64,000 nt of DNA from Pteria penguin (lineage: Eukaryota > Mollusca > Bivalvia > Pterioida > Pteriidae): positions 32,101,001 to 32,165,000 of the forward strand of contig CM068587.1 in assembly GCA_035048485.1 (NCBI GenBank), written 5' to 3'. Shown here in pieces: positions 178 through 60,563 of the stretch. Made by a program: the position numbers and the translations under genes. Each line of letters starts with the position of its first letter. Within the stretch, counting starts at the first letter, position 1. The notes beneath the pieces were generated by a model. That model had not been told where the DNA came from. It searched no databases and saw only the letters and a program-made list of their open reading frames with translations.

Positions 178-305
178 CTTTCCATTTTTGATAGCGGAAA
201 ATGTATACAAAAAAGGATTAAGAGCCGAGTTGACAGGCAAAATGAACACTGTTGTGAAGGCATAAACTTCTCCAGGAATTATGTTGCCGGATAGAGCCAT
301 TAAAC
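178..305 (-). CDS. Exon 24: TM7 of the GPCR
   Basis: 128 nt, phase 1 to 0, acceptor ttatcgcag, donor gtaatt. Joining to exon 23 gives CWFPVGVMGLMALSGN across the splice, then VYAFTTVFILPVNSALNPFLY, with the NPxxY motif as NPFLY. The cytoplasmic tail continues in an exon beyond position 1. No stop codon is reached in frame. Confidence 0.92.

Positions 306-60563: not shown

Follow-up and report, generated by a model that had tools for sequence, protein, structure and literature searches.

A candidate GRL101-type receptor gene of the bivalve Pteria penguin with a large mosaic ectodomain, a relaxin-receptor-like transmembrane core and a kinase-like cytoplasmic tail

Molluscs rely on innate recognition, and a cluster of GRL101 receptors has been tied to parasite resistance in snails, the mechanism being still lacking. 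GRL101 of Lymnaea stagnalis and its orthologues (LGR type C; LGR5 in arthropods) combine LDLa modules, leucine-rich repeats (LRR) and a class A seven-transmembrane (7TM) region. The relaxin receptors RXFP1 and RXFP2 likewise carry LDLa and LRR ahead of the 7TM, and activation of RXFP1 requires the LDLa module, according to the available text of one study (PMC3822782). In this study, we analyzed a stretch of 64,000 nucleotides (the window) from Pteria penguin (assembly GCA_035048485.1, contig CM068587.1, here C8:32,101,001-32,165,000) and found on its minus strand a receptor gene that shares these elements with both groups and adds to them a long series of outer modules and an unusual tail.

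Coding pieces were located in translated open frames, and their borders were refined against a paralogue. The window holds 24 exons of the gene, between positions 60563 and 178, with 5,852 coding bases in total. All of them are bordered by AG/GT, their phases are compatible throughout, the joined model contains no stop, and 14 of the 24 are symmetric 1-1 exons. An initial annotation, made from the letters of the window alone, had joined 24 exons in one frame with matching phases; the same count and end points were recovered here. It had also completed four split domains across introns; those found here to be multi-exon are both discoidins (three exons each), the first CUB (two), the lectin (three) and the fibrinogen-like region (at least three). 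Its span of 178..60563 did not hold as a complete gene, since ApeC and EGF-like exons lie upstream of the window and tail exons downstream; lying outside the window, neither ApeC nor the kinase-like tail appears in that annotation. Coordinates below follow the window scale, in which values above 64000 or below zero fall outside it, and all exons are on the minus strand. The gene runs through introns at both window ends (60564..64000 upstream and 1..177 downstream), and the last ApeC exon is compatible in phase with the kringle exon. A scripted search gave no candidate for a signal-peptide exon. A plus-strand gene was rejected, as no domain-bearing open frames of at least 50 residues were seen there by eye.

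The modules follow one another in the order EGF-like (by eye), ApeC, kringle, two discoidin-type, PAN-like (by eye), two CUB and C-type lectin; then come four LDLa, the fibrinogen-like region (by eye), an LDLa-like stretch, two LDLa, LRR and the class A 7TM, which is followed by a cytoplasmic tail with homology to the kinase C-lobe. Our best explanation is one gene, whose product would be a receptor about 2,380 residues long that belongs to the GRL101/relaxin-receptor group (LGR type C), and we hold this explanation, with all its parts taken jointly, to be about evenly balanced between right and wrong.

That the locus is a single gene, not several, is supported by sequence comparison because a collinear paralogue, a linkage repeated in ten genomic copies and homologous proteins spanning ApeC to the last transmembrane helix (TM7) all join the same parts. 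The paralogue, a compact gene examined in a 46-kb stretch of contig C7, has all 28 exons compared (the 24 of the window and four upstream) in the same order, every length being equal modulo 3; the 24 exons are therefore beyond chance. The two genes are identical at 1,607 of 2,212 aligned residues (72.6%), and the paralogue has no stop in 2,218 codons. The ratio of nonsynonymous to synonymous divergence (dN/dS) between them was 0.156 overall and did not exceed 0.486 in any of the 27 computable exons, by the Nei-Gojobori method at a dS of 1.09, which is near saturation. Donor sites in the paralogue are GT in 27 of 28 cases; the single GC donor belongs to the intron of exon F2b (L048), where the window gene has GT.

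The genome (838 Mb) was searched for further copies. The LRR-7TM exon matched ten copies over at least 474 residues on C2, C7, C8, C13 and C14, one of them with a stop, together with an eleventh copy interrupted in two pieces and further, more distant matches. In each of the ten near-complete copies, the kringle exon and the three ApeC exons lie upstream on the same strand. The ApeC and kringle query gave 51 matches, comprising the four exons of the ten copies (40), one partial copy (3) and eight weak matches elsewhere in the genome (E 5.9e-6 or worse). The tail exon query gave 11 matches. Nine of the ten copies, and the interrupted copy as well, have one downstream, and an orphan lies at C7:19.54 Mb; for the copy at C7:19.20 Mb this search gave none. 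Some scattered pieces accompany the family. The partial copy at C7:43.495-43.498 Mb consists of orphan ApeC and kringle exons, and the orphan tail exon lies at C7:19.542 Mb, both without a listed close LRR-7TM partner. The interrupted copy at C7:49.398-49.405 Mb has its tail match downstream and no ApeC or kringle match.

Protein searches (8 and 28 matches) yielded 20 family members from two further sources and 12 named species of bivalves or gastropods, the latter comprising oysters, scallops, mussels, Solemya and the abalone Haliotis rufescens. These proteins were deposited as predictions labelled 'uncharacterized' or 'GRL101' (GRL101 in three of the 20). Over the LRR-7TM exon, identity to a pearl-oyster protein does not exceed 62%. 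The domain order that the initial annotation had proposed to seek in molluscan proteins is present: in 16 of the 20 homologues (ten named species and the two further sources), every one of the 27 segments between ApeC and TM7 is covered over more than half its length, and the tail segment is covered in 16. Four (P0007, P0138, P0140 and P0141) are without the 7TM end or several modules, and P0006 spans ApeC to TM7 yet gives no Pfam LRR match. One homologue of 2,377 residues, with all exon groups from EGF-like to tail, is encoded on a contig of 7,353 bases. This contig is almost all coding, as expected of a spliced transcript; alternatively, it may be a retrocopy.

Two or more genes, or a mainly secreted N-terminal isoform with the outer modules rarely joined to the LRR-7TM part, would be consistent with the large introns that contain retroelement pieces and with P0007, which ends ahead of the LRR. 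However, ten copies spread over five contigs show the linkage, as do 16 of the 20 homologous proteins, and the 7,353-base contig encodes its 2,377 residues from EGF-like to tail. On these grounds the two-gene model was rejected, and we consider any such arrangement very improbable. The question of a stop or promoter between exon groups, which the initial annotation had raised, is answered indirectly only, by the same 2,377-residue homologue. Its central claim, one GRL101/RXFP-type gene with a large mosaic ectodomain, agrees with the paralogue, the ten-copy co-occurrence and the homologues.

The core of the receptor is encoded by a single exon (1655..3217) containing LDLa module 6, LRR, hinge and TM1-TM6, and by the exon for the end of the 7TM (TM7 with NPFLY; 178..305, phase 1-0). 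LDLa, LRR_8 and 7tm_1 are all matched within the former, in which the LDLa scores 21.2 bits, under the cut-off of 24.1 when taken alone. The best solved relative of the 7TM in PDB is RXFP1 (E 1.8e-46), followed by TSHR (2.1e-26) and LGR4 (3.3e-14). The motifs DRI, CWFP and NPFLY are present, at their customary 7TM positions. The LRR stands immediately ahead of the 7TM and LDLa ahead of the LRR, as in LGR type C/GRL101 receptors. These features place the predicted receptor with the GRL101/relaxin receptors (LGR type C). The strict Lymnaea architecture, with LDLa and LRR as the only ectodomain parts, does not apply, as ApeC, kringle, F5/8-C, CUB and lectin modules are present too.

Two observations concern this core elsewhere in the genome. 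In the C7 paralogue the last-TM exon occurs twice in tandem (L051:1345-1470 and L051:1602-1727; C7:19.493 Mb), the two being identical in protein over 42 aligned residues; they are possibly mutually exclusive exons. A second LRR-7TM family, 36-37% identical, is located at C12:12.774-12.900 Mb and C12:16.198 Mb (L030-L034), and a kringle lies 1.3-3.9 kb upstream on the same strand in all five of its copies.

The kinship of the core raises the possibility of a peptide-hormone receptor with an insulin/IGF/relaxin-like ligand, in which the extra modules just localise the receptor or tune access of the ligand. RXFP1 is nearest by the 7TM, LDLa and LRR follow each other as in RXFP, and an IGF ligand has been argued for GRL101 in the available part of one report (PMC8286064). 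However, from bivalves to one abalone the ApeC, kringle, discoidin, CUB and lectin segments have been retained, the dN/dS of the outer segments is far under 1 between the two copies, and a hormone receptor would not readily account for at least ten dispersed copies in a single genome. We regard a hormone receptor as unlikely, though with some claim to attention.

The outermost module is an EGF-like exon (72230-72132), the most distal of the upstream exons in C8:32,165,266-32,173,230 and labelled by eye without a Pfam match. Three ApeC exons follow (70686-70345, 65880-65699 and 64437-64266; Pfam PF16977). Joined, they match the whole profile (1-208 of 208) at 99.7 bits; the single pieces gave E values of 2.6e-11, 2.5e-7 and 0.0063. 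The eight conserved cysteines of ApeC are present in the window gene and in the four of seven homologues that were caught by the pattern. DXED motifs have been termed relatively conserved in ApeC proteins (available text of PMC8361754). No exact DXED match was found in the ApeC of the window gene or of the four pattern-caught homologues, and therefore we claim the ApeC domain and make no claim of peptidoglycan binding.

The kringle exon (60312..60563, phase 1-1), also found in the paralogue, matches PF00051 at 35.6 bits against a cut-off of 34.3 (E 1.2e-8), and a longer open frame scores 33.8. The match recurs in all six copies tested (E 3e-7 or better), in four of them over the cut-off, and the closest solved chains are prothrombin and HGF. 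The kringle did not appear when the 2,230-residue protein and four homologues were scanned whole with Pfam, and it was probably missed through speed filters. GAIN/GPS, the domain of adhesion G-protein-coupled receptors, was not among the Pfam matches at E up to 1 in the 2,230-residue protein, a scan that missed the kringle as well.

The first discoidin-type (F5/8-C-like) domain is split over exons at 58774..58866, 58330..58437 and 53635..53886, all three supported by paralogue comparison. The whole domain is weak in the window gene (Pfam E 0.0028) and better in Saccostrea (NedA-like, 3e-5). The second discoidin (F5/8-C) domain has a strong Pfam match; its first exon (45815..45993) is supported by Pfam and the paralogue, and the others (45255..45407 and 42239..42392) by paralogue comparison. 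A Cys-rich, PAN-like exon (39942..40241) has no Pfam or PDB match. Two CUB domains (PF00431) follow, the first in two exons (39326..39531 and 30765..30984) and the second in one (30076..30489; E 3.2e-12).

The C-type lectin domain is encoded by exons at 27047..27274, 25180..25249 and 23099..23271, the first two identified with the paralogue, and joined it matches PF00059 at E 3e-17. The last exon carries the QPD...NE..C...WKD motif (QPDGFANERC...WKD in the window gene). This motif was found in 16 of the 19 homologues scanned, in QPD or QPN form (QPN in oysters), and the QPD...NE..C...WxD pattern was not found in the other three. QPD and WxD motifs mark the galactose-type site of C-type lectins, and the lectin is thus predicted to have a QPD-type, galactose-type site.

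CUB, C-type lectin, LDLa, LRR and 7TM are over the Pfam cut-offs in the whole joined protein, with six LDLa stretches. LDLa modules 1 to 3 (21696..21848, 19230..19343 and 18068..18184) and module 5 (3921..4037) match Pfam (PF00057). Module 4 shares its exon with the start of the fibrinogen-like region (17637..17843; Pfam and paralogue), whose second (15785..16115) and third (10548..10732) exons are conserved in the paralogue. A short exon (6333..6467), also conserved there, ends in a degenerate LDLa-like pattern labelled by eye. For the second fibrinogen-like exon, no known fold gave a usable profile match. For the region, phmmer gave no match at E up to 1, and a seven-sequence profile gave only two unrelated matches at 0.3. 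Its resemblance to CNTNAP presumably lies in motif spacing. Among the domain labels given earlier, Pfam thus bears out kringle, both CUB, lectin, LDLa, LRR and the second discoidin, and weakly the first discoidin (E 0.0028); the CNTNAP-like fibrinogen label has no profile support.

CUB, discoidin, kringle and EGF modules are frequent in matrix and adhesion proteins, which would suit a sensor for endogenous glycans and collagens, not microbes, acting in cell-cell contact, tissue patterning or the shell matrix. In Pinctada margaritifera, differential methylation of a GRL101 gene has been described, and its authors argue that the gene plays a part in shell colour (available text of PMC8018223). 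On the other hand, those short-form ApeC proteins that were tested in amphioxus and molluscs bind peptidoglycan (text available from PMC9585378), and a lectin-bearing GRL101 cluster has been linked to schistosome resistance in snails (accessible part of PMC12297450). We judge such an adhesion or matrix role to be improbable, at perhaps one chance in five.

The tail is encoded by a 43-base exon (-54..-96) and two kinase C-lobe-like exons (-2953..-3197 and -7759..-7899, the latter with the stop at its end); the border of the -2953 exon reads GGG/GTGAGT. It resembles the C-lobe of a protein kinase without the N-lobe, and profile matches begin at the hinge. By single-sequence Pfam search the window tail gives E 0.019, which is insufficient alone, and therefore the claim rests on profiles. 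A profile of 17 tails matched 227 PDB sequences at E up to 0.01; the best 60 of the 227 are all kinase chains, with VRK3 at the top (2.2e-7). When the 17 tails were compared with Pfam at E up to 0.01, PF07714 was found in six and PF00069 in three. A scallop GRL101-like protein exceeds the Pfam kinase cut-off past its 7TM (profile positions 87-153 of 258). Structure prediction from six tails gave a pLDDT of 71; a single homologue tail gave 49 and was dropped. With the predicted tail structure, the best 50 of 848 Foldseek rows are kinase entries. These profile and model comparisons indicate that the tail probably adopts a kinase-like C-lobe fold. It is not a complete kinase domain with N-lobe and HRD: the window gene reads HGP at the HRD position, where the Asp is missing from 16 of 17 tails. 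The tail may thus be a docking or regulatory pseudokinase rather than an enzyme.

Anatomy, conservation and kinship are as observed above; ligand, coupling and tail function we infer as follows. The outer modules (ApeC, QPD-type lectin and discoidins) would capture glycans, either those of microbes or those displayed on the animal's own surfaces. Multivalent surface binding could then pull the LDLa/LRR part to the 7TM or present it there, and the repositioned part would turn on the 7TM as in RXFP1, probably via a G protein. The pseudokinase-like tail might recruit partners as a docking or regulatory scaffold. A glycan- or microbe-sensing LGR with such a scaffold tail seems to us about as probable as not. 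The broader proposal, a new receptor class that extends at least from bivalves to abalone and whose ApeC-lectin-discoidin array senses microbial or altered-self glycans via an LGR-type receptor with a C-lobe-only pseudokinase tail, is tentative and falls short of an even chance. Glycan- or microbe-type modules and a relaxin-receptor-like 7TM in one polypeptide offer a testable path from surface recognition to G-protein signalling. If true, this would be a germline-encoded pattern-recognition G-protein-coupled receptor (GPCR) and also a kinase-related GPCR fusion in bilaterians.

The introns contain mobile-element remnants. Reverse-transcriptase-like frame pieces at 49398-50213, 48745-49308, 24141-24587 and 12331-13665, which we take to be of the Penelope-like family, resemble pieces in paralogue introns and neighbouring stretches. 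Minus-strand pieces at about 32207-31113, in the large CUB1 intron, presumably resemble a mariner-type transposase. There is also an intronic 36-base tandem repeat of 4.2 copies (37603-37754), over which a plus-strand frame is open and encodes a Thr/Lys/Asp-rich repeat.

The receptor family itself is already known as GRL101/LGR type C. RXFP1 and RXFP2 have, to our knowledge, one LDLa, no further ectodomain modules and no kinase-like tail. In Lymnaea, GRL101 is described with twelve LDLa and six LRR (available text of PMC8286064), whereas the window receptor has six LDLa and, in addition, the EGF-like, ApeC, kringle, discoidin, CUB and lectin modules and the kinase-like tail. The SudRes2 GRL101-like receptors of Biomphalaria sudanica are alike in combining C-type lectin, LDLa, LRR and 7TM, in having several paralogues and in their suspected role in parasite resistance (accessible part of PMC12297450). 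That text has no occurrence of CUB or kringle; ApeC and discoidin were not searched there. The full-length, eight-cysteine ApeC is common to the window receptor and ApeC-containing proteins of molluscs, and in the 2022 survey of the latter two groups have over ten domains; the present type may be among them (available part of PMC9585378). The terms 'gpcr', 'transmembrane', '7tm', 'kringle' and 'cub' do not occur in the main text of that survey (PMC9585378, as available). Among the papers listed in our literature search, supplementary files aside, there was no description of a GRL101 receptor with ApeC, kringle, discoidin, CUB and a half-kinase tail, and none of GRL101 together with apextrin. 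The initial annotation had named the gene its best candidate for an undescribed system; 'undescribed' stands for the full architecture within the literature searched, and not for the family or for lectin-plus-LDLa GRL101 receptors, which were published in 2025 (PMC12297450, accessible part). Finally, the GPCR-TKL/K and GPCR-TK fusions also carry kinase-like sequence after the 7TM; they have a kinase domain (available text of PMC12716839), whereas the window receptor has the C-lobe only, without the catalytic aspartate. The conserved half-kinase tail thereby broadens the relations between GPCRs and kinases to molluscs.
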